NCBI RefSeq assembly: GCF_001571385.1
Contig: NZ_BCNW01000001.1
Location: forward strand, 1,364,001 to 1,428,000
Length of the DNA stretch: 64,000 bases
Direction of reading: 5' to 3'
DNA from: Methanofollis ethanolicus
GTDB lineage: Archaea > Halobacteriota > Methanomicrobia > Methanomicrobiales > Methanofollaceae
A program made the position numbers and the translations under genes. This document shows positions 38,519 to 57,462 of the stretch, in pieces (within the stretch, counting starts at the first letter, position 1; each line of letters begins with the position of its first letter). The notes under the pieces are model-generated. The model saw only the letters and a program-made list of their open reading frames with translations. It was not told where the DNA came from and did no database searches.

Positions 38519-38665
38519 GTGCCCTCAGTCCTGATTTTCATGGGTCGGGAGGGCTGATAAAATCAGATGTTTTGTGCCTCCGGGAGGTTTTGGGGGGCTT
38601 GCGCCGTGGCCGGGATCAAGGGTATTTATACCGGCGAAACGTATGGGTATCTGCATTTCTGGTCT

Positions 38666-38750
38666 GCGAGGGTTGCCGAGCCAGGTCAAAGGCGATGGAT
38701 TTAGGGTCCATTCTTGCAGGAGTTCGAGGGTTCGAATCCCTCCCCTCGCA
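38666..38750 (+). tRNA. tRNA-Leu (anticodon UAG)
   Basis: An 85-nt class II tRNA. Acceptor GCGAGGG pairs with CCCTCGC (38743-38749), discriminator A at 38750, CCA not encoded. The anticodon stem ATGGA/TCCAT encloses the loop TTTAGGG, giving anticodon TAG. The T stem GAGGG/CCCTC closes TTCGAAT. The long variable arm is present. GTATTTATACC upstream at about 38623 is a likely TATA box. Confidence 0.95.
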
Positions 38751-38849: not shown

Positions 38850-39099
38850 GCCGTTTTTCGGGCTCTGTAGAAACCCTCACCTTTTCCGTGTATGAACGTG
38901 GCCCAACCGCCTTCCTCCATCTTCGCACCGGGGGACTACGCCCCGGGACACCGCTCAGGATTGGACATCAAAAGGGCAAACGTGCATCTTGAAGAGGGGA
39001 CTGCCCTCCACCCCCCTATCCTCATGGCGGGGGGACCGGGGGGTGGCAGCCCCCCGGACGAGACACTCCAGAATAGGAGTTCTACAGAGCCGTTTTTCG
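38850..39099. mobile_element. MITE-like element (copy 2)
   Basis: Direct repeats GCCGTTTTTCG at 38850-38860 and 39089-39099 flank inner inverted repeats GGGCTCTGTAGAAA (left) and TTCTACAGAGCC (right). The interior contains ACCGGGGGACTACGCCCCGG and a second, more degenerate hairpin AGCCCCCCGGA. The borders match copy 1 at 34.2-34.6 kb. It has no coding capacity. Confidence 0.55.
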
Positions 39100-39254: not shown

Positions 39255-39440
39255 CCCCGCCTTCCCCTATCTCTCTGCCGGGGGACTGACGCCCCCGGAC
39301 CCCCGAAACAGGATAGGGCCGGGGAAGAGAGACCAGAGATCCTGATGACGGAGATTGCCATCCACCCCCTATCGCAATGATGGGGGGACCGGGGGTGAGA
39401 CCCCCCGGACAAGACACCAGAACAGGATTTTTCAGAACCA
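39255..39440. repeat. GC-rich hairpin intergenic repeat, partial element
   Basis: Contains GCCGGGGGACTGACGCCCCC, then CCCCCGAAACAGGATAGGG, followed by TGGGGGGACCGGGGGTGAGA and CCAGAACAGGATTTTTCAGA. The order matches the interior of the MITE-like elements, but no clear terminal inverted repeats are found. The remaining sequence of 39100-39254 and 39441-39555 has no visible gene. Confidence 0.5.
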
Positions 39441-39894: not shown

Positions 39895-40454
39895 TCATAA
39901 CTCTCCGGACCCCCAAAGTGTACATGCCAGGTAGATGAGTCCCAGAAATGAGTATTCATGTCGCTCGTATCGGGGAAAGACCTGCTTAAATGCCTTTATG
40001 CCGCTGAAAATTGTTCAACGGCGCTTCGCTTTTTATACGATCCCTGATCAAATCAGAATGGCCTTCCCCGCCGGGGGTATTTCCCTGCACTGTGTCCGCT
40101 CTTGCCTTTACAGCAACTGTTCCGCTGCCATACGCTGCATTCGGGCGGGTCTTTTTCCATTTTTCCCGTAAAAGACCGCACATCTGGGCGTGATGCCGCG
40201 GAGGGAGGTCGCGAGAGGTGAAAGGATCGGTGAACCGGGAGAAGGTGATCCAGAGATGTGCCCCGTGCCATGAAAAGATCGCCAACCAGATAAACTCCTG
40301 CACCAACTCGTCTTTCGAGTCGTGAGCGAGAACCAGGCCATTGCATTTGAGTCGTGGAATGGTAGTGGGATGATGAAATGCGGGCGTGGCGCAATGCGCC
40401 AGGCACCGCGTGCTGACAATGCAATCGCGGTGCGTTGTCATGCCGAACCATCAT
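39895..40454 (-). pseudogene. Degenerate IS4/IS5-type transposase remnant
   Basis: On the minus strand two frames together give the C-terminal part of a DDE transposase: SYKKRSAVEQFS, then after a one-base deletion GIKAFKQVFPRYERHEYSFL and LGLIYLACTLWGSGEL up to TGA at 39895-39897. Allowing the deletion, the Y-2-R-3-E-6-K signature of IS4/IS5-group transposases is exact. Upstream the same frame has another stop (TGA after GKYPRRGRPF). The 5' limit and terminal repeats are not seen. Confidence 0.5.
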
Positions 40455-40598
40455 CCGGCACAGGGGTCCGGAGACGTTTCGTGGGGTATGTTCTTCGCGA
40501 TGCTGAAGTCCACATGCCGGACGTACGGGAAGACTCTCCTGAAGATCGAACGTTTTGATCTATCCTCGAAGACGCATGGGTAACTGCATTTCCCGTCT

Positions 40599-40683
40599 GC
40601 GAGGGTTGCCGGGCCCGGTCAAAGGCGATGGATTTTGGGTCTATTCTTGCGGAGTTCGAGGGTTCGAATCCCTTCCCCTCGCA
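40599..40683 (+). pseudogene. Decayed tRNA-Leu copy with Gln-type anticodon UUG
   Basis: It follows the tRNA-Leu at 38666 base for base over most of its length, including the flank (ATGGGTAACTGCATTTCCCG versus ATGGGTATCTGCATTTCTGG). Differences: anticodon loop TTTTGGG (anticodon TTG instead of TAG), one base lost from the variable arm, T-stem 3' strand CCCTT plus an extra C before the acceptor, and changes in the D arm. The upstream TATA box is also lost. A class II body with a Gln anticodon would mis-insert leucine if active. Confidence 0.7.
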
Positions 40684-40907
40684 TTGCGACAGGGCATTCC
40701 CCTGATCGGGAGTGGTCCCGCTATTTTATCCGAGTTCGGGACTGACGCCTCTTCTGCCGGGGGATTTTTCTACTTCTTCCGGGATGGCGATCTGCTTCCT
40801 GCCGCCGGCGTCCAGCATCATGCGAGAGGGAATTCTGGAATGTCCCCTCAGTGGGGGGGCAATCCATATATGCAAAAAGTGCCAACATTTCTCTGCACTG
40901 TGGCAGA

Positions 40908-40979
40908 GCGCCGATAGTGTAGTGGTTATCACTAGGCGTTGCCAACGCCTAAACCCGGGTTCGAGTCCCGGTCGGCGCA
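40908..40979 (+). tRNA. tRNA-Gly (anticodon GCC)
   Basis: A 72-nt tRNA. Acceptor GCGCCGA pairs with TCGGCGC, discriminator A at 40979. Anticodon stem AGGCG/CGCCT closes the loop TTGCCAA, anticodon GCC. T arm CCGGG-TTCGAGT-CCCGG is canonical. CCATATATG about 40 bp upstream is a likely TATA element. Confidence 0.96.
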
Positions 40980-44006: not shown

Positions 44007-44666
44007 TCAGGCCTTCTTGCATATCGAGAGAACCACGGCGGCAGACGGCCTGACACTCGCACATTTGCTCTTCCCTTGCGCCGTCTGGTCGATCAATCTG
44101 TCCGAGAGCAACCGCGCACAATACCGCGAGGCGGAACTTTCAGATATCTGCAAACGTTGTGCGACATCTGAGATCGACGTGGGGCCGAAGTCCTGAATAT
44201 CCTTGAGGACCGCCAGTTCCCTGTCCCGGAGGGGGGAGGTGAGATAGGGCAGATCGATCTCAGAGAGTTGTCGGCTCACATCTGAATATGAGGTGAACTG
44301 AGCGATCTTTGGTGCATGGCTTAAAGATGCAATGGTGAGGGCGACCAGGATCTCGCGGGGCCCGCCAGAGAGATTTACAATGATCGACGCACCCGGAGTG
44401 TCGTGCAGCGTACCTTTAATCGCCTCAATGCATGCGAGGACCATACCGGAAAAATCACGGTGGTCAAGGTTGACTCGTCTGATCGCGATGCCGGCGTCGA
44501 TTGTGCGGACCATCTCTGTCACGCTCGTAAATGCACTGTCGGCCCGTTCATCCCTCGTATCTGACATCAGCATAATGATCCCGTCCCCTGCTTCGATCCC
44601 ATATTTCACGATCAGTGAGAGGACATGGGAGGTGTCAAAACCAAGGGGTGAAACGTATACTTTCAT
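44007..44666 (-). CDS. csa3: CRISPR-associated transcriptional regulator Csa3
   Basis: The 219-residue protein has an N-terminal CARF domain (about 1-130) with VYVSPLGFDTSHVLSLIV and ASIIVNLSGGPREILVAL, and a C-terminal winged helix-turn-helix (about 145-210) with LQISESSASRYCARLL. CARF domains sense cyclic oligoadenylates or related signals, and Csa3 controls cas or adaptation genes. It is divergent from cas6 with a 132-bp shared control region. Confidence 0.9.
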   Translation of the reverse strand: MKVYVSPLGFDTSHVLSLIVKYGIEAGDGIIMLMSDTRDERADSAFTSVTEMVRTIDAGIAIRRVNLDHRDFSGMVLACIEAIKGTLHDTPGASIIVNLSGGPREILVALTIASLSHAPKIAQFTSYSDVSRQLSEIDLPYLTSPLRDRELAVLKDIQDFGPTSISDVAQRLQISESSASRYCARLLSDRLIDQTAQGKSKCASVRPSAAVVLSICKKA

Positions 44667-44700
44667 ACATTATCTCTGACGGCAAGGTATTTAGATTTCA

Positions 44701-44750
44701 TTTTTTTGCAATATATCTCGGTGCATGCACTTTTTTTGCAACATTAATGT
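44701..44750. promoter_or_regulatory. Putative Csa3 operator and divergent promoter
   Basis: Direct repeats TTTTTTTGCAA at 44701-44711 and 44731-44741 are exactly 30 bp apart (about three helical turns). Between and after them lie perfect palindromes GTGCATGCAC (44721-44730) and ACATTAATGT (44741-44750). AATATATC and CACTATACG are candidate TATA elements for csa3 and cas6. Binding by Csa3 is inference. Confidence 0.55.
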
Positions 44751-44798
44751 CACTATACGAATCAAAAGATTGATGAGGACATAAGTCAAGGAGTGTTC

Positions 44799-45653
44799 AT
44801 GCGACGGGTGAATCTAGCACTCAGGACAGACCAGTCATTCGAGATACCGGTCCACGAAAGCTACCAAATTTACTCTTCGCTGCTGGGACTCATGAAGGAA
44901 TCTGACCCTGAAGTGAGTCAGCGCATCCATGACTCGACTATCACGTCAATCTCCCTTGGAGCCCTTCACGGCCCCTTCCGATCGACAGAGAGGCCCTACC
45001 TGAAGCAGGTGATGCCCCATGAGCTCTATCGTCTTCGTATCGGGATCACCGACCCCCACGACGACGAGGTCTTCCGTCATCTTGTCCTGCCCATTCTGAC
45101 AGATCGAAAGGAACTTTCCCTCTATCAGGGTTCCTTCTCCATCGAGCAGGTCGAGGACCAGATGGTATCGGTCGACGACCTCATACGGCAGACGCAGGGG
45201 TATGAACGACCCTCTCTGAACTTCGATTTTCTGACCCCGACATGCATTCAGTACCGGAATTCCCGTGTCACGGAGATGTATCCCCACCGGATTGCCGTGT
45301 TCCATTCTCTCCTTTCAAAATGGAACCATCTCTCTCCAGCCGACCTTCGCATGGGTGTTTCCCGAGACGATTTCGGGCGATACCTCATCGAAAAACCTGA
45401 CCTGCGCCGGCTCGCGACCTACAGCGTGCAGGTCAACACGGTCATGGACGCGAAGAGAGGTCATTCCCGTCCGATCTTCAAACAGGGCTTTGTCGGTCGA
45501 TGCACCTATTCCTTCACATCAAATGCCCCGATAGGGTTTAGAAACGCTACCCTGATCCTCGCCATGTTTGCCGAGTTCTCAGGTGTCGGATCCAGTGTCG
45601 CCCGCGGGTGCGGGCAGGTGGATGTCACAGTCCAGGACGGTGTCAATGAGTAG
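44799..45653 (+). CDS. cas6: CRISPR endoribonuclease Cas6
   Basis: From ATG 44799 (site GGAG six bases upstream) the protein has 284 residues. The C-terminal glycine-rich loop GVGSSVARGCGQVDV and the RAMP-type layout identify Cas6, which cuts the CRISPR transcript inside the repeat. It overlaps cas10d by 8 bp. It is the first gene of the cas operon. Confidence 0.9.
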   Translation: MRRVNLALRTDQSFEIPVHESYQIYSSLLGLMKESDPEVSQRIHDSTITSISLGALHGPFRSTERPYLKQVMPHELYRLRIGITDPHDDEVFRHLVLPILTDRKELSLYQGSFSIEQVEDQMVSVDDLIRQTQGYERPSLNFDFLTPTCIQYRNSRVTEMYPHRIAVFHSLLSKWNHLSPADLRMGVSRDDFGRYLIEKPDLRRLATYSVQVNTVMDAKRGHSRPIFKQGFVGRCTYSFTSNAPIGFRNATLILAMFAEFSGVGSSVARGCGQVDVTVQDGVNE

Positions 45654-48600
45654 TGATCCATTCATGAGCCTGTTCTCTCAGGAGCAGGTGAATATGGTCT
45701 TTCAGAAGACCACAGGGAGGGCAATCCCTCCTTCGTATCGTGTGCTGAGTGACTATTTTACTCTGGTCGATCCGGTGATCCGGATCTCCCAGTACGCTCT
45801 TCGCCCGGCAAAGAGTGTAGAATATGGCAAGGTCGACCAGCCGATGCTGAGCCATATACGGAATGGCGTCTGGGCCATGGTCGAACTGAACGTACGTCTC
45901 TCAGAGATGGGTTCCGATGTCGCTCTCTCCCCGGACGAGTTGCGGGAAACCATCGCTCTCTTTGCCGTTCACGACCTTCACAAATGTGTCGGCGAGAAGT
46001 GGAAGGAACAGTTTGACCTCTCGGCCGAGCATGTCCATATGGTCGCCGCAGAGTTCCGGCTTACCGAGTACGCTCCTGCCCTGACCGCCGAGGACTATCA
46101 GTCCATTGCCGTCGCCCTCCACTCGAAATGCGGTTATCACGCCGACCTCTCGCAGAAGTTCACGGATTACCTCCGATGGCTGAAACTCGCCGATGCTCTG
46201 GCAGGTCTGGAAAGGCCCCGGGTCACCGGTTCGATGCGCAAGGCCCTCGGCTTTATCGATCCGTCGCTTTCTTTCTACTATCACCTGTTCCAGGAGTCGA
46301 CCGGCATCCTCTCGAATGTTGTGCACACCGGTGTTGCTGAATGGGCGAAGAAAAAGGGTCTGTATCCTTTCCTCATCTTCGAGACTGGCGTCCTCTACGT
46401 CGGACCGAAAGGAATCGACCTCGACGTTCCCGGCCGCGAGACCCTGATCGAGATCTACCGGGAGTTCGAGCATGTTCTCAACTCCTGCCATGCGGCGATC
46501 TCAAGTCCCGCAGAATTCTCCAAGAGTATTACAGTTCAGGGGAGCAAGGGGCTGTATTCGGTCGATAACGCCTCCTTCTTCTACTCGGGCGTCCCGACCG
46601 TGATGAAGGGGTTCATGGCCGCGGCGGTCCTCCGCGAAGAATCAGAGAACACCGGCCAGATCGAGATCGACCTCGCACAGCACAAACTCCTGGCCAGGAA
46701 CGCGGCACCCGAGATGCAACAACCGCTCCTTGAGGTCATCGACATTCCGGCTTCGGCCATCTCTGAGATCACAGTCGACGGGAGTGCGGTGGAACCTGTA
46801 AACGTGGAGATCCTCTGCCGGCCCCCTCAGCAGACCAGATCGAAATCTCTCCTCGTCCCGGAGTCGGTCAGGCTTGACGGACAGACGGTCGATGGGGCGG
46901 AGATCACGATCACCGGGCCAAGCCTCTTTGCAAGCCAGGTCGGATACCGGCACCATCTCAGGGAAGACTTCGGTATCGACATCGGGTGGGACGCCCGGAT
47001 CATCTCCTATGCTCGGGCAGTCGCAGGACTGAGAAAAGCGGTCATCGACCCGCTCACCGAGGCCCATGCCCTCCCCACCGACGACCCCATCCTTGAAACC
47101 TGCCGGCTCTTCCAGGTCAACGAGGACCTTGCACACCGCATGGCAGAGTACGCCGGGGAGCACCGTGGGAAGGATCATCATGCGGTCGGGGGGTTCTGGA
47201 ACTATTCCTATGTGATCGCCAGGGTTCTGCTCGACTCCTCTCTCGACGGTGTCCGCTTCGCCGACCTTACGACCGACAGGAAGATCGCGTACCTCATATC
47301 CCTGGTCGATTCGTTCCTCTCCAGCATCCCGACTGGGACGATGGAAGCCTTCAAAGAAAGCCTCCTCTATCCCTATCAGGACAAACTTCTTGTCTGGTTT
47401 GCAGAGAACCTCGACCTGAACGGGTCGATGGCATTTGGTGCATTTGAGAACAAAGTCTCGAAGTTTGACGCCTACTGTCGGGGGAAGGGAGTCTGCCACC
47501 TCACCGCAGATACGCCGTTTGACACGGAGGAAATAGCCCCCTCGAAGGATGTCAGTATGCTCGGTTATTCGTTCTCGAACCACGCCGTCCTTGGGGGAAC
47601 AGAGCCGAAACTCTCGGTCTCCGTGCCGGTCGAGGTCGAACTCGGGCTCAGGAGAATTGGTCACCAGATCAAGAAGGGCGAGGATAAACTCTACTTCCGG
47701 TTGGTTCCCGACTACTTCCACACGCCTCTCGTCGCACGGATCTTCTCTGATCTCCTGAGCCGGTTCAACGACGAGGCGATGACAAACATCAGAGCCCTGG
47801 CGGTGGAAGCCCTGAACGGGTCTACTCTTGATCTCACAGCACTGGTGCGAGAACTCTTCGCCGAGGCTGGGGGTCGTGGACTCTTCCGGTATACGGGTGG
47901 GGGCTTCACGGCATTTGATTCAACCCTGTACACTACCTACGACGTCGTCTTCAACAAAATGAAAGACAACGAGACCGAGTACTGGTTCTTCGGTGCATAT
48001 CTCGGGATGGTGCTTGCCACGGCAACCGGGTGCCGGGTGGTGGTTGGGGAGAACCCGATATGTATGACCGGCGGAGATGAGTTCAACGAGATGGTCCTGC
48101 TTGAAGCACCGCACGCGGCGGTAAAACGCATCTTTCATGACACGATCCCCCTGTCGAGACTCCCCTCAGACCTCCATGGCGCGTCCCTGGTCGTCGCCCT
48201 CGGGTATGAGTACGCCCTGGAGGACAAGTGGTTCCCGAAACATCTGCAGACGCTCAGGAACCACCGGTGTCCGGGAAGCACTCTCCTCAAGGCGCTCTGG
48301 AGAAAGAACACCGAGAGCGATGGCCAGACCGGGGCTTTCATCAACCGCGTCCGGGGCTATTCGATGCAGGCTGATAAGAAGGTCTACAACCAGTCGGTCC
48401 GGCTTCTTGAATGGGCGATCGAACTTGACCAGATTGCAGGTGATCCTATGACTATACAGACACTCCATGAACTTGCCCAAATCGGGATGGATGTTGTGAT
48501 CCCGAAGGGGTTTGAACCGCATAAGATCGAGAGACTCTTCAGGGAGTCGGTCCGGGCCGTCCTCGCGCGGGGGACGCAGAAGTTCCAGCGCGAAGATTAC

Positions 48601-48906
48601 GTCGACGCCGTTATGGGCCGGTTGCTCAAGATGATGGAGCGCGCCGGTGATGACCAGTTCTTCCGGGTCAATCGGCGTAACCACGATCATACCGAGCAAA
48701 CAAAGGCATTTGCCGAAGCGTTCGTTGATTATGTCTTTTACGGACTTTTTAACGGCAACGCCGGGAAGATGAAGCGTGCGGAGAACGACCTCGCCGACGG
48801 GTTCTACGCGGCGACGCTCCAGCTGCGTGAAGAGTATTACCAGAGAAAAAACGCCGCACAGAGTACAGCCGTTGAAGAGAAGAAAACTGTAGAAGGAGGA
48901 AATTAA
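45646..48906 (+). CDS. cas10d: Type I-D large subunit Cas10d (Csc3)
   Basis: From ATG 45646 the protein has 1086 residues. The N-terminal HD nuclease domain contains H109-D110 in AVHDLHKCVGEKW. The central palm-like domain carries G809-G-D-E-F813 in MTGGDEFNEMV. In type I-D, Cas10d supplies the HD nuclease that other type I systems have in Cas3. The GGDEF-like motif is retained here even though the family's palm is often considered inactive. It is followed by csc2 and csc1. Confidence 0.9.
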   Translation: MSSDPFMSLFSQEQVNMVFQKTTGRAIPPSYRVLSDYFTLVDPVIRISQYALRPAKSVEYGKVDQPMLSHIRNGVWAMVELNVRLSEMGSDVALSPDELRETIALFAVHDLHKCVGEKWKEQFDLSAEHVHMVAAEFRLTEYAPALTAEDYQSIAVALHSKCGYHADLSQKFTDYLRWLKLADALAGLERPRVTGSMRKALGFIDPSLSFYYHLFQESTGILSNVVHTGVAEWAKKKGLYPFLIFETGVLYVGPKGIDLDVPGRETLIEIYREFEHVLNSCHAAISSPAEFSKSITVQGSKGLYSVDNASFFYSGVPTVMKGFMAAAVLREESENTGQIEIDLAQHKLLARNAAPEMQQPLLEVIDIPASAISEITVDGSAVEPVNVEILCRPPQQTRSKSLLVPESVRLDGQTVDGAEITITGPSLFASQVGYRHHLREDFGIDIGWDARIISYARAVAGLRKAVIDPLTEAHALPTDDPILETCRLFQVNEDLAHRMAEYAGEHRGKDHHAVGGFWNYSYVIARVLLDSSLDGVRFADLTTDRKIAYLISLVDSFLSSIPTGTMEAFKESLLYPYQDKLLVWFAENLDLNGSMAFGAFENKVSKFDAYCRGKGVCHLTADTPFDTEEIAPSKDVSMLGYSFSNHAVLGGTEPKLSVSVPVEVELGLRRIGHQIKKGEDKLYFRLVPDYFHTPLVARIFSDLLSRFNDEAMTNIRALAVEALNGSTLDLTALVRELFAEAGGRGLFRYTGGGFTAFDSTLYTTYDVVFNKMKDNETEYWFFGAYLGMVLATATGCRVVVGENPICMTGGDEFNEMVLLEAPHAAVKRIFHDTIPLSRLPSDLHGASLVVALGYEYALEDKWFPKHLQTLRNHRCPGSTLLKALWRKNTESDGQTGAFINRVRGYSMQADKKVYNQSVRLLEWAIELDQIAGDPMTIQTLHELAQIGMDVVIPKGFEPHKIERLFRESVRAVLARGTQKFQREDYVDAVMGRLLKMMERAGDDQFFRVNRRNHDHTEQTKAFAEAFVDYVFYGLFNGNAGKMKRAENDLADGFYAATLQLREEYYQRKNAAQSTAVEEKKTVEGGN

Positions 48907-48907
48907 A

Positions 48908-49900
48908 ATGAGCGAAGATGCGATCCAGAAATTTGGTGCAACGATCAAGGACTACATTCTTGAAAAACCCGAGAAGAGGCCGAAGAACCGGTACGTGAAC
49001 CTTCTGGTCCTCCGGGAACTGCTCTCGGCGGCACGGTTCACCACCGACGGCACCGAGGCAAACTCGGCAGTCATCCGCATCGGGGAAACCGAGGAGACGG
49101 TCGGGAAACTCTTCGGTCGTAAGCAGGTGGCGAGCGACCGCCGCACTGCAAAGGCGGTTCAGCGGGCCCTGATCACCGACGAGATGAAGAAGAAAAAGGC
49201 TGACTGGGACGGGTGCTCGATGGAAGTGACAAAGATGTGCCAGAAGTGCCCGGAGTGTGCTCTCTTTGGCAGCGCCGCATCTGAAGGTGCTGTCAGCATG
49301 ACATCCCGCGTCATGTACGACGAAGCGTACACGATCCGGTCCCTGAGTACGGTTGTCGAGGAGTTCTTCCAGAACGCACCCGGTGACGCCTACGTGAAGA
49401 ACGCAACATCTGGAATCCGTGAGCCCGACTTCTTCAAAGAGGGCGTGCTCATCCCCTGTGTGGTGACTCTCAAAGACGTCACTCTTGAGGAAGTGCTCTT
49501 CTTCATGAACATAACAGACCGGAACTCCCGGTACGGCGCCACGGGGACACGCTTCGGGAAGGTCAGGAACCACATCCTCGGTGTCTACGCAGGCGGACGG
49601 GAAGGGCCGTCGAGTCTTGAGGTGACGCGCGAGATCATCCTTGCCCTCGCCGGCACGTCTGATCAGGAGGCGATCCAGAAGGTGATGTCCGCCGATACGC
49701 TGGACCTTGAAAAAGTAAAGGCGGCGGCGGTCACGGGCTATGAAGACCTTGCATCCCGCCACCGGATCACCTCCATAAAGGTCGACGAAGCGGCGACCGC
49801 GGAGGTCCTCGACGCAATCAAGGAGGACTCGGAGGTTGCATCCCTGCTCACGACCCAGCTTGGAAAACTGGACGACTATCTTGACGTGCCCAAGAAGTGA
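48908..49900 (+). CDS. csc2: Type I-D backbone subunit Csc2 (Cas7d)
   Basis: The 330-residue RAMP protein is the Cas7-like subunit that coats the crRNA. It has a Cys-rich zinc-binding segment CQKCPECALFGSAASEGAVS typical of Csc2, and RNA-contact loops around FTTDGTEANSAVIRIG. It starts directly after cas10d (GGAGG site in the cas10d tail). Confidence 0.9.
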   Translation: MSEDAIQKFGATIKDYILEKPEKRPKNRYVNLLVLRELLSAARFTTDGTEANSAVIRIGETEETVGKLFGRKQVASDRRTAKAVQRALITDEMKKKKADWDGCSMEVTKMCQKCPECALFGSAASEGAVSMTSRVMYDEAYTIRSLSTVVEEFFQNAPGDAYVKNATSGIREPDFFKEGVLIPCVVTLKDVTLEEVLFFMNITDRNSRYGATGTRFGKVRNHILGVYAGGREGPSSLEVTREIILALAGTSDQEAIQKVMSADTLDLEKVKAAAVTGYEDLASRHRITSIKVDEAATAEVLDAIKEDSEVASLLTTQLGKLDDYLDVPKK

Positions 49901-49905
49901 GTGCT

Positions 49906-50658
49906 ATGTCCGCGACTGTCGCACCCACGCCGCTGGCGGCGAAGCAGGACATGCAGGTCTACGAGGGTGTGCTGGAGCTCATGGGTGAGCTCTTCTTTGC
50001 CACCCTTGAACCCGGCAACCGGTACGTGACAAAGCCCCTGATCCTGAACACGGCGCTCTACTACGCCCTGGGATATGCCCGGGGTTCCTATGTAAACGGG
50101 GCGACGGGTCGGCGGTCGAAGAGGCAACAGCCGACCTATGTCGAGGACACGGCGGCGTTTGCCGACGAGATCTATGTCTCGGTCGCCCGGCCGATCACCC
50201 CTCTCAGGTTCACCACCGAGAATGCCAATGCTCGTGGCGACGATTACGTCCAGCGCAACCAGCCTGAAAAGCAGATGAACTCACCGACAGGGAAGATCGG
50301 GACGCGGAAGCAGATCCAGCCCGGTGCAAAGTTCCGCTTCTTTGTCCTGGCATTCAACGGCGCAGTCCCGGACCTGCCGGTCTATGTGCGGGTCGGGAAA
50401 AAACGAACCAAGGCCCTGATCGAGTGGAACCGTCTGCCGGTCAGGCGGCATGCCGGATCATTCCTGATGAACCATCCGGTCCTTGTCGACGACCTGGTCA
50501 GTATGCCGATCGGAGACATCCGTTTCTCCCGGATGATCCCGTTCGACGTGATCGAGCAGGGGCGGTTTGAAGGACCGTATTGTGCGTTCACCTGCACCGA
50601 TGGTGAGGAGGTCTGTCTTCCGGCCGACCTGCAGTTCCTCCGGCGGTGGCGGGCATGA
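49906..50658 (+). CDS. csc1: Type I-D subunit Csc1 (Cas5d)
   Basis: About 250 residues from ATG 49906 (GTG 49897 overlapping the csc2 stop is possible). It has the Cas5-like RAMP pattern with ELFFATLEPGNRYVTKPLIL, and PSGAKFRF-like strand FRFFVLAFNGAVPDLPVYVR followed by GKKRTKALIEW. It caps the 5' handle of the crRNA. Its stop overlaps the cas3' start (ATGA). Confidence 0.88.
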   Translation: MSATVAPTPLAAKQDMQVYEGVLELMGELFFATLEPGNRYVTKPLILNTALYYALGYARGSYVNGATGRRSKRQQPTYVEDTAAFADEIYVSVARPITPLRFTTENANARGDDYVQRNQPEKQMNSPTGKIGTRKQIQPGAKFRFFVLAFNGAVPDLPVYVRVGKKRTKALIEWNRLPVRRHAGSFLMNHPVLVDDLVSMPIGDIRFSRMIPFDVIEQGRFEGPYCAFTCTDGEEVCLPADLQFLRRWRA

Positions 50659-52724
50659 TCGTCGAGGGGCTTTCCCTGCCGCGATATGATGCAGAACCGC
50701 TGGTCGGGGATATGCCTCCCTTCGGTCATCAGGTGATTGCCCGGGAGACCATCGGGACGCAGGACGAATATTATCTTGCGCTTACGGCCCCAACAGGATC
50801 TGGAAAGACCAATGCATGGGCCGTGCCCGCCCTTACCGGCGACCGCCTCGGTGTGATCCTTGCCCTGTACCCGACCAACGCCCTGGCCCGGGACCAGTAC
50901 AGGTCTCTCTGCCGTCTCCGGGACCGCCTGAACCCCTCGAAGCCCATAGAGTACCTTGACGCCGAACAACTTGGCCTGAGAAGGGACGAGTATGACTACC
51001 GGATCACGAAGGGCGATGTGCTGGAGCAGATCGTCAGGACTATGACGCGGTCGGGCGGTGTCATCGTCACCAACCCTGACATCTTTATCTACGGGTTGAA
51101 GGGCTACTTTTCCAACTGTTATCTCGCTTCGTTCCTGAGGAACACAGTTTCGACGGTGGTCTTCGATGAGTTCCATCTCTTCGACCTCAAACAGACCGAC
51201 ATGATCCTCTTTCTCCTCCATGAGATCTCGTTCTACGATTCGGCACGGATGAAGCGTTTTCTCTTCCTCTCGGCGACTCCGAACGAGCGTGCTCTTGCCA
51301 AAATCCGGGATGTCATGCATGGCAACCTTGTGGTCGCCGGGCCGCGGTGCGATCTGCCTGTCGCCGATGAGGTGCCGGTGATGCCCGAGGTGGACCTCCG
51401 CTTTGTCCGGGGAACGAGGTTTGGCGTGGGGGAGGCGATCCTTGCAGATATCGATCGTTTCCTGGAGTTCTGCGAGGGGTGCAGGACAGCGGTCATCCTG
51501 GACAGCCCTGCGGAAGTCTGGATGGTGGCCGACTTCCTGCGGGAGCATACTGATCTTCGCGTCTGCGAGATGAGCGGATACCACAGGGGTTCGATGGACG
51601 AACCTTTCGATGTGCTTGTCGGGAACAAGGCGGTCGAGGTCGGGATCGACTTCAAGGGGGAGACGGCGATTCAGCGCCTGATCTTCTCTGCGCACAACCT
51701 CAGTGAGTTCCTGCAGAGGTTCGGCCGGCTCAGGAACCCTGAGCCCGGGATCGCCTACCGGGCGGTCTGCTATGCCCCGCGCGAGACGGTCGACCACTTC
51801 TCGTCGGTAGAGCGGGTGTCGAGGTCAGACCTTGAGGCCGGGCTCCGTATGACGATGCGGGACCCGAGGGTGGCGCAGAGTTTCAGCTGGCGCTACGGGT
51901 ACCTGGAGGCCTGGGAGTATCTCTGTAGACACGTATCCGGCATCGGGGCCCGGGAGGCCAGAGCAAAGATCAAAGGCGCGTATCCTCCTCTCACCGGCGG
52001 CGTGCCAACAGATCAGCAAGACGAAGTGAAGCATCGGGGACTTGGTCTCCTCTACTACCATTATTTCGTCGGTTCCGGGATCTCTCCAGAGGAGATGCTC
52101 CGGCTTCCCGGCCTTGTACCGCTTGAGAACTACACGCAGGACGATCTCCCCCTCCTCGACCTGATCGATGAACTGGTCAGTTTCCGGGGGAAAGGGATGG
52201 ACCTTGCCTATCTCAACACGACTGACGGGAGTTCCGGGACCTACGACCTCTTCTTCCTGCTCCGCTGGACAGACCTGGAGGTCGTGACTCGCGAGGAGTT
52301 CCTGCGGGCTCTTCCAGAGGATCGCCGGTCATGGGGCCACGAGATCTCGGGGCGGGTAGCGGGGTATGTCTTTGTCCGCGGCAGGGTCGAGAGCCCAAGG
52401 ACGGTGAAGATGGAGGGGGCGACGTTCCGGGAGATGGAGGTGCTTGTTGATCAGGACCGCGTGCCGCGGGTCGTCTGCGGCATCGGACCCTATGTCCGGA
52501 GCCGCGATCCCGCAGTCCCTGTCCTCGACATCACGGCCTTAAATACGGCAATCCGGAATAAGGGGGTGTTCTGTCGGTACTTCGCCCACAATGGGTATGT
52601 TGCCAAGGAACTCTTCGGCCTTGACGACTATCTCAAACTGGTCCCGTTCAAGGGCGGGAGCCTCGCTCTCGATCTTGATGCACTGTATGCCGACTGTGCC
52701 GCCTTCGAGCATCAGGTCCGGTGA
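50655..52724 (+). CDS. cas3: Type I-D helicase Cas3' (no HD domain)
   Basis: The 689-residue superfamily 2 helicase has Walker A TAPTGSGKTNAW, DEFH box VVFDEFHLFD, motif III LFLSATPNER and motif VI QRFGRLRNP. No HD domain is present at either end, as expected for type I-D where the HD nuclease is in Cas10d. It unwinds target DNA during interference. Confidence 0.92.
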   Translation: MIVEGLSLPRYDAEPLVGDMPPFGHQVIARETIGTQDEYYLALTAPTGSGKTNAWAVPALTGDRLGVILALYPTNALARDQYRSLCRLRDRLNPSKPIEYLDAEQLGLRRDEYDYRITKGDVLEQIVRTMTRSGGVIVTNPDIFIYGLKGYFSNCYLASFLRNTVSTVVFDEFHLFDLKQTDMILFLLHEISFYDSARMKRFLFLSATPNERALAKIRDVMHGNLVVAGPRCDLPVADEVPVMPEVDLRFVRGTRFGVGEAILADIDRFLEFCEGCRTAVILDSPAEVWMVADFLREHTDLRVCEMSGYHRGSMDEPFDVLVGNKAVEVGIDFKGETAIQRLIFSAHNLSEFLQRFGRLRNPEPGIAYRAVCYAPRETVDHFSSVERVSRSDLEAGLRMTMRDPRVAQSFSWRYGYLEAWEYLCRHVSGIGAREARAKIKGAYPPLTGGVPTDQQDEVKHRGLGLLYYHYFVGSGISPEEMLRLPGLVPLENYTQDDLPLLDLIDELVSFRGKGMDLAYLNTTDGSSGTYDLFFLLRWTDLEVVTREEFLRALPEDRRSWGHEISGRVAGYVFVRGRVESPRTVKMEGATFREMEVLVDQDRVPRVVCGIGPYVRSRDPAVPVLDITALNTAIRNKGVFCRYFAHNGYVAKELFGLDDYLKLVPFKGGSLALDLDALYADCAAFEHQVR

Positions 52725-52731
52725 GGTGACA

Positions 52732-53286
52732 ATGTTAGGTGATCTCGTCAACATCTCAGACCTGAACCAGTTCCTCTACTGCCCGCGTCGCCTCTACTAC
52801 CTGATGTTCTACCAGACGCAGGGGTTGAACTTTTACCTTGCCGACGGCCGGGCCCTCCACAACCGTCAGAGTCGGCGGGGCGGGTGGTATCGGGAGGTCT
52901 ATCTCCGCTCCGAGGCCCTCCACATGCACGGGAAGATCGACGTCGTCGAGCGTGCCGGTGATGTCATTGTCCCGGTGGAACGCAAGCACGGGTCGAGGTA
53001 CTATGAGAATGACCTGGTCCAGCTGGCGGCGTATGCCATGCTGCTGGAGGAGTACCTGGGGGAACGGGTGCCTGCGGGGTACCTGTACCTCTACGAGACC
53101 AATGACCGGTACCTGATCGAGATCTCCGACCTGCTCAGGGAGAGGGTGAGGACGACGGTCGAGGCGATACGGTCCATGAGAGTCGATGAGGTCCCGGCGT
53201 TCTCGGAGAACCCGAATAAATGCCGGAAGTGCAGTGCGGTCACCTACTGTATGCCCTACGAGGCCCGCCTGCTGGAGGAGGTGTAA
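52732..53286 (+). CDS. cas4: Cas4 nuclease
   Basis: The 184-residue RecB-like nuclease has the iron-sulfur cysteines C17 (FLYCPRRLYY) and C164, C167, C173 (NKCRKCSAVTYC), and the catalytic core D70 (GKIDVV), E83-x-K85 (VERKHG) with QLAAYAMLLEE. It selects and trims new spacers in adaptation with Cas1-Cas2. GTGAGGTGA precedes the ATG. Confidence 0.93.
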   Translation: MLGDLVNISDLNQFLYCPRRLYYLMFYQTQGLNFYLADGRALHNRQSRRGGWYREVYLRSEALHMHGKIDVVERAGDVIVPVERKHGSRYYENDLVQLAAYAMLLEEYLGERVPAGYLYLYETNDRYLIEISDLLRERVRTTVEAIRSMRVDEVPAFSENPNKCRKCSAVTYCMPYEARLLEEV

Positions 53287-53293
53287 AATAAAT

Positions 53294-54334
53294 ATGCCCG
53301 AGTCAGATCGTGCGATCGAGGGTGCCGAGGCATTCAGGGTGGTGCGGGCGTCGGAGGGTATGTTTGATGACGACGTGATCTATGTCTCGGCACAGAAGAG
53401 CCGTGTCCGGGCGGAGGGCGGCAGGATCACGGTCACGCCCTGGGGCGAGAAGGAGGTTCTGGCCTCTTTTCCCATGGAGAAGGTGAGGACGATCAATGTC
53501 TTCGGGAGCGTGTCGGTCTCCTCCTCGGTCCTCACGAAGTGCCAGGAAAATGGCATGGCGGTGAACTACTTCACCTATTATGGGCGGTACGAGGGGAGTT
53601 TTGTCCCGGTACATAATACGATTGCCGGGGTCCGCCGCCACCAGTACGGCTGCACCGGTAACCGGGCCCTCAGGATTGCCCGTGCCATGATCGGCGGCAA
53701 GATCCGGAACTCACGGACTCTCCTCTCCAGAAAGCATGTCCCTCCTTCTGCCAGGCTGAAGGAACTGGAGCAGAGCGCCGGAGGTGCGAAGAACATGGGT
53801 GCGCTTCGCAGTGTCGAGGGTGAGGCGGCCGGCATCTACTTTGCGTCCCTGAACGAGTGCCTGATCGAGGGCTGGACTTTTGAAAAAAGAACACGGAGGC
53901 CTCCGGAGGATCATATCAATGCCCTCCTTTCTCTGACCTATTCCATGGTCCTGAACGAGGTCATCTCGGCTCTCCGGCAGTATAACCTCGATCCTTTCCT
54001 TGGCGTGATGCATACGGATCGCCATGGGAGGCCGGCTCTCGCCCTGGACCTCCTTGAGGAGTTCAGGCCGATCTTTTGCGACGCCTTTGCCCTGAGGCTG
54101 GTGAACCAGAGGGTTCTCACGCATGATGATTTCAAGGAGGACAACCACCTGAAAGACGCGTCCTTTAAAAAATACCTCTCCCAGTATGACTCATATATGA
54201 AGGAGGAGTTCAGGCATCCGCATTTCAAGTACCAGGTGTCCCGGAGGCGTGCGATAATCATGCAGGCGATCCTCCTCAGGAAAGCGATTACCGGAGAGAT
54301 GAAAGTGTATCATCCCCTGGTGTTCATGAGGTGA
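53294..54334 (+). CDS. cas1: Cas1 integrase
   Basis: From ATG 53294 (GGAGGAGGTG upstream) the protein has 346 residues. Metal-binding residues are E177 (EGEAAGIYFASL), H240 (GVMHTDRHGRP) and the acidic pair in LALDLLEEFRP. It integrates spacers at the leader end of the array. It overlaps cas2 by 1 bp. Confidence 0.95.
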   Translation: MPESDRAIEGAEAFRVVRASEGMFDDDVIYVSAQKSRVRAEGGRITVTPWGEKEVLASFPMEKVRTINVFGSVSVSSSVLTKCQENGMAVNYFTYYGRYEGSFVPVHNTIAGVRRHQYGCTGNRALRIARAMIGGKIRNSRTLLSRKHVPPSARLKELEQSAGGAKNMGALRSVEGEAAGIYFASLNECLIEGWTFEKRTRRPPEDHINALLSLTYSMVLNEVISALRQYNLDPFLGVMHTDRHGRPALALDLLEEFRPIFCDAFALRLVNQRVLTHDDFKEDNHLKDASFKKYLSQYDSYMKEEFRHPHFKYQVSRRRAIIMQAILLRKAITGEMKVYHPLVFMR

Positions 54335-54606
54335 TGGGTGTGCGGCTGGTGGTGACCTATGATATTTCCAAGGATAAGGTTCGGAATCGGGTGTTCCGGA
54401 TTCTTGAGGGGTATGGTGCGTGGAAGCAGTACAGCATCTTTGAACTTGAGGTCACTGACGTTCAGAGGGTTCAGATGGAGGAAAAGATCAGGTGTGTCAT
54501 TGAACCTCATGACAGGGTACGGATCTATGAGTTGTGCGCCCGCTGTATCGGAAAGATAACGGATCTCGGGGAGCGGTCGCCGGAGTCGCTCTCCAATGTG
54601 GTGTAG
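54334..54606 (+). CDS. cas2: Cas2
   Basis: Ninety residues, MGVRLVVTYDISKDKVRNRV, with the conserved aspartate D10 and a ferredoxin-like fold pattern (GAWKQYSIFELEVTDVQ). It forms the adaptation complex with Cas1. ATG 54334 lies in the stop of cas1. Confidence 0.95.
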   Translation: MGVRLVVTYDISKDKVRNRVFRILEGYGAWKQYSIFELEVTDVQRVQMEEKIRCVIEPHDRVRIYELCARCIGKITDLGERSPESLSNVV

Positions 54607-54756
54607 CGAAAAGTTGATCGTGCGATGGGTCAATAGGTGTTCTGGTGTATCATGCCTGTTTATATGGGCAGGGTATGCTGTCACCCTATGACCTGATCGT
54701 CTCCTTTCTCTGCCATGCATTGCTTTGTTCGGCTTTTGCAGGCAAAATGGGGGGCG
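54607..54756 (+). promoter_or_regulatory. CRISPR leader
   Basis: The 150-bp stretch between cas2 and the first repeat has no ORF. TGTTTATATGG at about 54656-54666 is a likely TATA box, so the array is transcribed from here rightwards. This orientation agrees with the repeat 3' end ATTGAAAC, the usual 5' handle of Cas6-processed crRNAs. Confidence 0.75.
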
Positions 54757-57462
54757 GTCGCAGCTGAAAAGAAAACCCGATAGGGATTGAAACCAGGCGG
54801 TCGTCAAGTCGCTCCGTGTCAAGGCGGGGGTCGCAGCTGAAAAGAAAACCCGATAGGGATTGAAACAAGTACGGGCAGAACCCCGCACAGATCTTCTGTG
54901 GGTCGCAGCTGAAAAGAAAACCCGATAGGGATTGAAACACCTCCTCGTCGGAGGTGTCGGGGCGCAGGCCGTCGTCGCAGCTGAAAAGAAAACCCGATAG
55001 GGATTGAAACGACGCTATACGGGGGGGTTATGGTTCGCGCTCAGTCGCAGCTGAAAAGAAAACCCGATAGGGATTGAAACGGTGCGAGCGTGACCGGACG
55101 ACCGGAGCGATCACAGTCGCAGCTGAAAAGAAAACCCGATAGGGATTGAAACCAGATCACAGTATCGGGGCCGATCACGAACCCAGGTCGCAGCTGAAAA
55201 GAAAACCCGATAGGGATTGAAACCAGGATCTTGGCCGTGGTCACTGCATTGCTCGCGAGGTCGCAGCTGAAAAGAAAACCCGATAGGGATTGAAACAGAT
55301 TCCTCAGCCCCGCGACGGGAAAGCCCACCGGGGTCGCAGCTGAAAAGAAAACCCGATAGGGATTGAAACATCTCGTAGGTCGGCCAGGTGCCCGCCTGCG
55401 CGATTGGTCGCAGCTGAAAAGAAAACCCGATAGGGATTGAAACTAGGTACCAATACATTGCATGGTTCTCAGTCCTGGGTCGCAGCTGAAAAGAAAACCC
55501 GATAGGGATTGAAACTATATTCCCGCGCTCATGCACGCAGATGTAAGGTCGCAGCTGAAAAGAAAACCCGATAGGGATTGAAACCCGGCAGAGTTCCCCT
55601 GCTCGGTGATAGAAGTCTAGTCGCAGCTGAAAAGAAAACCCGATAGGGATTGAAACAGGCCGAGACCCCGGCGGGTGTCTGTGCGAAGGCGGGTCGCAGC
55701 TGAAAAGAAAACCCGATAGGGATTGAAACTGCCGAAGAACGGATGTACATCCATATCAGTATTGTCGCAGCTGAAAAGAAAACCCGATAGGGATTGAAAC
55801 TTCCCGGCCTCGTCGGTCTCGTAGACGACGCGGTTGGGTCGCAGCTGAAAAGAAAACCCGATAGGGATTGAAACGCATGCGCGCAGGTTCTACAGTTGAC
55901 CTCTGGCAACCGTCGCAGCTGAAAAGAAAACCCGATAGGGATTGAAACTGATCCCCGGTCGGGCCTTACCCTCCCGCTCAGTAGTCGCAGCTGAAAAGAA
56001 AACCCGATAGGGATTGAAACGACATGGTGGACGCCGCCCCGATATGGGAAAAAGGTGTCGCAGCTGAAAAGAAAACCCGATAGGGATTGAAACAGTATTG
56101 CGTAGACTCGCCCCTCGATTGCGAAGGTGAGTCGCAGCTGAAAAGAAAACCCGATAGGGATTGAAACGTCGGCATGACGGTCCGGATCGACCCCGCGGTC
56201 CGGGTCGCAGCTGAAAAGAAAACCCGATAGGGATTGAAACCACCCCCGCGGTCAGGGTGTACTGGTCAGAGGTGAGTCGCAGCTGAAAAGAAAACCCGAT
56301 AGGGATTGAAACACAGTCTGGGAAGGGTTCGTGATCATGGTGGTGTGGTCGCAGCTGAAAAGAAAACCCGATAGGGATTGAAACGCGAGCCTCGCCGAGG
56401 TAGACGTTACGCTTGCACTTGTCGCAGCTGAAAAGAAAACCCGATAGGGATTGAAACTTTGTTCTCAGATACTTTGCAAATTCGGACCATACCAGGTCGC
56501 AGCTGAAAAGAAAACCCGATAGGGATTGAAACGGAGTTCGCTGACCCCATCGAGAAGAGGGAGCCGAGGTCGCAGCTGAAAAGAAAACCCGATAGGGATT
56601 GAAACACGAGGGTCTCCTCGGCAACGCTCTCCGGGGTCGCGTCGCAGCTGAAAAGAAAACCCGATAGGGATTGAAACTGTGCGGCATGCACGCCGCCGGA
56701 GCGAGTAGATCTGCGTCGCAGCTGAAAAGAAAACCCGATAGGGATTGAAACTTTCGTCCAATCGTATGGTACTGGGACGTGGACCTTGTCGCAGCTGAAA
56801 AGAAAACCCGATAGGGATTGAAACTCGTTAGGTGTATGGCAACGATTCTTGGAAAGAAGTCGCAGCTGAAAAGAAAACCCGATAGGGATTGAAACGTATG
56901 GTGGGGGATACAACGCGCCGGTTGTGACTCGTCGCAGCTGAAAAGAAAACCCGATAGGGATTGAAACATTGAGAGTGATGTTGGCGATCCGCTCATGCTC
57001 CAGAGTCGCAGCTGAAAAGAAAACCCGATAGGGATTGAAACACGAGTCGGCCCGTAGCAGGGCAATACGCAATAGCCGCGTCGCAGCTGAAAAGAAAACC
57101 CGATAGGGATTGAAACCTCCGATCCAACTCTGGACGTCGTGAAACGCATTGTCGCAGCTGAAAAGAAAACCCGATAGGGATTGAAACGGCTACAAGGGGA
57201 ATTGATCATGCAGATTGTTAGCGGTCGCAGCTGAAAAGAAAACCCGATAGGGATTGAAACTATCACCTCGCCGAGGCCCTGACCAGTTTCATCTGTCGCA
57301 GCTGAAAAGAAAACCCGATAGGGATTGAAACCCGCAGGAGGAAAGGAACCGGCAGATGTAGTAGCCGGGTCGCAGCTGAAAAGAAAACCCGATAGGGATT
57401 GAAACGTGCTTTCGCTCCGTATTGAGTCTTAGCAGACTCAAAAATCCTATCGAGATTGAAAC
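54757..57462 (+). CRISPR. Type I-D CRISPR array, 37 repeats plus one degenerate terminal repeat
   Basis: The 37-bp repeat begins GTCGCAGCTGAAAAG and ends GATAGGGATTGAAAC. Thirty-seven copies from 54757-54793 to 57369-57405 appear identical by eye. The 36 spacers between them are 32-38 bp (most 34-37). A 38th, strongly degenerate copy ends at 57462 (57426-57462, ends GAGATTGAAAC), separated by only 20 bp. Repeat uniformity and a full cas1-cas2-cas4 set suggest an active array. Confidence 0.98.

Follow-up and report, generated by a model that had tools for sequence, protein, structure and literature searches.

Predictions of tRNA genes in which body and anticodon belong to different isotypes are flagged by tRNAscan-SE 2.0 as isotype-mismatched ('hybrid') and are described as unusual and probably not functional (PMC8450103). 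The nematode nev-tRNAs are class II molecules that carry glycine or isoleucine anticodons and can be leucylated in vitro (PMC4300185, PMC4033280); several species hold more than 100 of them, which are matured and weakly expressed. In Haloferax volcanii, the leucine identity of a tRNA resides in A73 and in the variable arm, especially in its loop nucleotides A47c-G47d and U47h (PMC9976931).

The tRNA copy described here lies in a 64,000-nucleotide stretch of the Methanofollis ethanolicus genome (the window; genome handle G000, 2.71 Mb, 3 contigs, 99.7% complete). As in the 'hybrid' predictions, its body and anticodon are of mixed isotypes, its score is low and its structure is defective; no essential difference separates it from them, the present case being one where the parent gene is found 1.9 kb away and where the tnpB neighbour shows the loss of the promoter. 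With the nev-tRNAs it shares a class II leucine-type body combined with an anticodon foreign to class II tRNAs, but it is single, lineage-specific and damaged, and it has lost a leucine-identity nucleotide. The copy is most probably (about 94%) a non-functional pseudogene of the neighbouring tRNA-Leu(UAG), produced by a short DNA duplication that was joined to a truncated tnpB gene, left the promoter behind and decayed neutrally.

A leucine-type body with a TTG anticodon

Three tRNA genes were reported in the window by ARAGORN: tRNA-Leu(UAG) at 38666, a 'tRNA-Gln(ttg)' at 40598-40684, labelled so from its anticodon, and tRNA-Gly(GCC) at 40908. In the Rfam search their respective scores were 51.9, 34.0 (E 0.0026 in the window search) and 66.8 bits. 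The second of them, the copy, has the lowest score of the 47 Rfam tRNA matches of the genome, the other 46 ranging from 48 to 73 bits, which leaves a gap of 14 bits. End-to-end alignment with tRNA-Leu(UAG) at 38666-38750 (the parent) revealed four substitutions and two indels of one nucleotide, 80 of the 85 bases being shared (Table 1); the copy-specific stretch is GGATTTTGGGTCTATTCTTGCGGAG. Upstream of the tRNA the homology runs on for a further ~26-32 nt (91% across 117 nt; E 1e-37), most of the 26-nt leader being common to both, so that the likeness is far beyond chance. Apart from these shared parts, the copy differs from the parent in the anticodon, in A14, in A47c, in the extra base between T stem and acceptor and in having no native TATA box.

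Table 1. Coordinates in the window of the parent gene, the tnpB remnant and the tRNA copy.
Feature	Position	Strand	Basis
Parent TATA box TATTTATAC, outside the copied segment	about 38623..38631	+	top upstream TATA score; identical in G010 and G011
Parent tRNA-Leu(UAG), intact	38666..38750	+	ARAGORN; Rfam 51.9; Leu model 110.5 bits; 85 nt identical in G010 and G011
Part 1 of the remnant of a tnpB pseudogene (IS200/IS605-type)	40190..40377	+	77-82% identity to three intact tnpB of the same genome
Insertion of ~62 nt interrupting the tnpB remnant	40378..40439	+	gap between stretches contiguous in intact tnpB genes
tnpB remnant, part 2, ending before the zinc-finger/C-terminal part	40440..40572	+	78-84% identity to three intact tnpB
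Copied 5' leader, homologous to 38640-38665	40573..40598	+	alignment; match from 40567
tRNA-Leu copy (probable pseudogene), anticodon TTG	40599..40683	+	Rfam 34.0 bits; Leu model 85.1, Gln model 19.2; alignments
Substitution A14G	40612	+	copy vs parent
Substitution A17aC	40616	+	copy vs parent
Substitution A35T, anticodon TAG to TTG (40635-40637)	40636	+	copy vs parent
Substitution C to T, G-U pair remains	40642	+	copy vs parent
Deletion of A47c, variable arm	between 40650 and 40651	+	copy vs parent
Insertion of one T, T-stem/acceptor boundary	40673/40674	+	copy vs parent

The isotype of the body was assessed with two covariance models, one built from 22 class II Leu tRNAs (taken from relatives and from the remaining Leu genes of this genome, parent and copy being left out) and the other from 16 Gln tRNAs. 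With the Leu model, the parent reached 110.5 bits and the copy 85.1 bits, a value which is not by itself proof of a dead gene since it is near that of a genuine tRNA-Leu(CAA) (86.8 bits). With the Gln model, real tRNA-Gln genes, whose class I bodies fit it, scored 96-103 bits, the parent tRNA-Leu 29.2 bits and the copy only 19.2 bits. The copy is leucine-type in its body, without a competing Gln-type fold, and the A35 of a functional archaeal leucine anticodon has been replaced in it. Its acceptor stem, D-stem, anticodon stem and T-loop are still able to pair. Single-sequence RNA folding returned a cloverleaf for neither the copy nor the parent, and folding energies were therefore left unused.

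These results are in agreement with much of the earlier note, which had described a class II, leucine-type copy of the tRNA-Leu(UAG) at 38666, 5' flank included, with a glutamine anticodon, a base missing from the variable arm and an extra base between T stem and acceptor. Both indels are found in the alignment, and the good Gln-type alternative fold that the note had named as a ground against its reading did not appear.

The tnpB junction and the promoter

The sequence ahead of the copied leader is the remnant of an IS200/IS605-type tnpB gene, recognised by comparison with three intact tnpB genes of 400-440 codons in the same genome. The reading frame of the stump matched NCBIfam IS200_TnpB at E 2e-5 and Pfam PF07282 at E 3e-4, in each case under the curated cut-off, as is expected for a fragment. 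At the junction, tnpB homology stops at 40572 and homology to the parent leader starts at 40567-40573, the bases CGAA(G)A at 40567-40572 being common to both. The second part of the remnant occupies the promoter position of the copy.

Promoters were scored with a TATA-only model, trained on the 45 tRNA genes of the genome in leave-one-out fashion, which was adopted because a 14-nt model proved over-specific, giving even the parent only 2.6 bits. The parent TATA box scores 8.0 bits at -43 and exceeds 43 of the 45 tRNA genes. Before the copy, a chance TATA-like stretch belonging to tnpB, GATCTATCC, scores 4.3 bits at -42; this value beats 19 of the 45 real tRNA genes and is equalled by 20% of shuffled sequences. 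Over the last 60 nt ahead of the junction, 50 positions are identical to intact tnpB versus 17 to the parent flank. Since the parent box lies upstream of the duplicated segment and tnpB occupies the equivalent position, the promoter of the copy was never copied, rather than degraded. A TATA box degraded in place, as previously proposed, is ruled out by the tnpB sequence present at that distance, and the copy has not been caught at an interesting step of TATA decay, which did not happen. Expression of the copy from the tnpB-derived stretch appears improbable.

These data are best explained by an origin in which a segment of ~111-117 bp, made up of the tRNA through its final base and the 26-32 nt that precede it, was copied ~1.9 kb downstream and joined to a tnpB gene that was already truncated, probably by means of the short microhomology CGAA. 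The parent TATA box was left behind at the duplication, and the copy, free of purifying selection, would then have gathered substitutions and indels at conserved and variable positions alike, among them A35T, which happened to convert TAG (leucine) into TTG (glutamine). A retro-copy of the tRNA transcript was also considered and rejected, as the leader begins ~26-32 nt upstream, beyond the start deduced from the TATA box, and no CCA end is encoded.

The observed changes have the distribution expected for random hits: invariant columns make up 46 of the 85 Leu positions (54%), two of the four substitutions fall there, and the chance of no hit in such columns was 0.04, a test of little power with only four substitutions. 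Given four random substitutions, the probability of obtaining a sense anticodon for an amino acid other than leucine is 0.078. Neutral decay is enough to explain the TTG anticodon and nothing more is needed.

The locus in relatives and in the genome

In the two nearest relatives of the genus (G010 and G011), the locus was recognised by tRNA-Leu, tRNA-Gly and shared intergenic blocks. The tRNA copy is absent from the syntenic locus in both of them, and the combination of a class II Leu body with a TTG anticodon is absent from the 231 other genomes of the order, which makes the present genome the only one among 232. The 85 nt of the parent tRNA are identical in G000, G010 and G011. Two leader bases (the A of AACG and a G in ATGGG) are common to the copy and the G000 parent and differ from G010 and G011. 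These shared bases would fit a recent local duplication, after the split from G010, the first of them counting less because it adjoins the tnpB junction; we infer that the nearest sequenced relative had already diverged when the duplication took place.

G011 retains part of the tnpB remnant (40269-40385) at the corresponding position, and the whole stretch has been lost in G010. The first bases of the insertion at 40378-40439 (ATGCGGGC) also follow the stump in G011, suggesting that tnpB was probably interrupted before the tRNA copy arose. On the other side, the ~135 nt between the copy and the conserved tRNA-Gly leader (40684-40818) gave no clear match in the genus, only short weak ones. A G+C-rich intergenic repeat (CCGGGGGACT...CGCCCC..GGAC..) is present in two copies, at 38890-39060 and 39255-39415, between tRNA-Leu and the tnpB stump.

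The genome holds an intact tRNA-Gln(TTG), a tRNA-Gln(CTG) and all Leu isoacceptors, so that the copy serves no decoding need. Elsewhere in the genome, a tRNA-Met(CAT) gene (L074, G000:C1:1716941-1717051) carries an intron of 37 nt. The window also contains a type I-D CRISPR-Cas region (44007-57405), with genes for Csa3 (44007-44666, minus strand), a Cas6-like protein (44793-45653, plus strand) and Cas10d/Csc3 (45568-48906, plus strand), and a 37-repeat array (54757-57405, CRISPR-DR60).

Taken with its bottom score and the damage at invariant positions, the absence of the copy from relatives bears out the earlier description of the locus as most likely a decaying duplicate. The copy presents the features of tRNA pseudogenes, namely homology to a functional tRNA, the lowest score, damage at positions of the fold and no conservation in relatives, and is expected to be neither transcribed nor functional.

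Alternative readings and meaning of the copy

The copy could be an active tRNA that accepts leucine and, like the nematode nev-tRNAs, inserts it at a low level at CAA (glutamine) codons. The leucine-type body, A73, G18-G19 and the T-loop are retained, the anticodon is TTG, and the weak TATA-like stretch stands at a plausible distance. The cost of mistranslation would moreover be limited, since the four window genes counted use CAA for glutamine less often than CAG (8 versus 57). Against this reading stands first the damage to the molecule itself. The identity nucleotides A73, A47c, G47d and U47h, which occupy columns 85, 53, 54 and 58 in the Leu alignment, do not vary among the 22 related Leu tRNAs; the copy keeps A73 and U47h, and its A47c is deleted, so that it departs from archaeal tRNA-Leu identity. 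The earlier note was right, for Haloferax volcanii, that the leucyl-tRNA synthetase recognises the variable arm and A73 (PMC9976931), but the copy itself lacks A47c, an identity nucleotide in that archaeon, and the claim of continued leucine charging loses support. A14, another base common to all 22 of these Leu tRNAs and the partner of U8 in the core of the molecule, has been changed in the copy. The inserted T breaks the continuity of the acceptor/T-stem helix. With A47c deleted, A14 changed and that helix interrupted, the proposal that an active copy would insert leucine at CAA codons has lost its basis. The native promoter is missing in addition, no relative conserves the copy, and an intact tRNA-Gln(TTG) would compete with it. 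An active leucine-accepting tRNA is thus very unlikely, and still less likely is the full chain of low-level transcription from the tnpB TATA-like stretch, leucine charging despite the loss of A47c and Gln-to-Leu mistranslation at the rare CAA codons. For expression, maturation and leucylation of the nev-tRNA kind, the sequence evidence points against.

Archaeal tRNA genes are common integration sites, and the scar that an integrase leaves is usually a second copy of the tRNA's 3' portion. The copy could accordingly be the remnant of an attachment site, left by an integrated element that targeted tRNA-Leu(UAG), as its homology ends at the 3' end of the tRNA and transposon debris adjoins it. 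What was duplicated here, however, is a whole gene with its 5' leader, the original remaining intact, and not a 3' part bounding an integrase element. No integrase was detected in the reading frames between 39935 and 41308, the region scanned, and the intervening DNA is partly common to G010 and G011, both of which are devoid of the copy. This origin is as poorly probable as an active tRNA.

The presence of the copy in one genome only could suggest an assembly or sequencing artefact, but this is scarcely credible for a copy with six differences from its parent and unique flanks (the tnpB stump before it, single-copy sequence after it) in an assembly that is 99.7% complete in 3 contigs. That the copy is a divergent but genuine tRNA-Gln, as the anticodon-based label of ARAGORN would have it, is next to inconceivable in view of its Gln score, under even that of the parent, its long variable arm and the 80 of 85 bases that it has in common with the adjacent tRNA-Leu.

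The pseudogene reading thus preferred is of importance mainly for annotation: the tRNA-Gln(TTG) label of ARAGORN and the inference of ambiguous decoding should be corrected to 'tRNA-Leu pseudogene'. Past annotation its importance is little, the copy being an ordinary genomic fossil. It nevertheless offers a small and clear case of a tRNA gene duplicated without its promoter, and illustrates that a decaying tRNA copy can pass through the state of a different sense anticodon, in ~8% of cases with four random substitutions.
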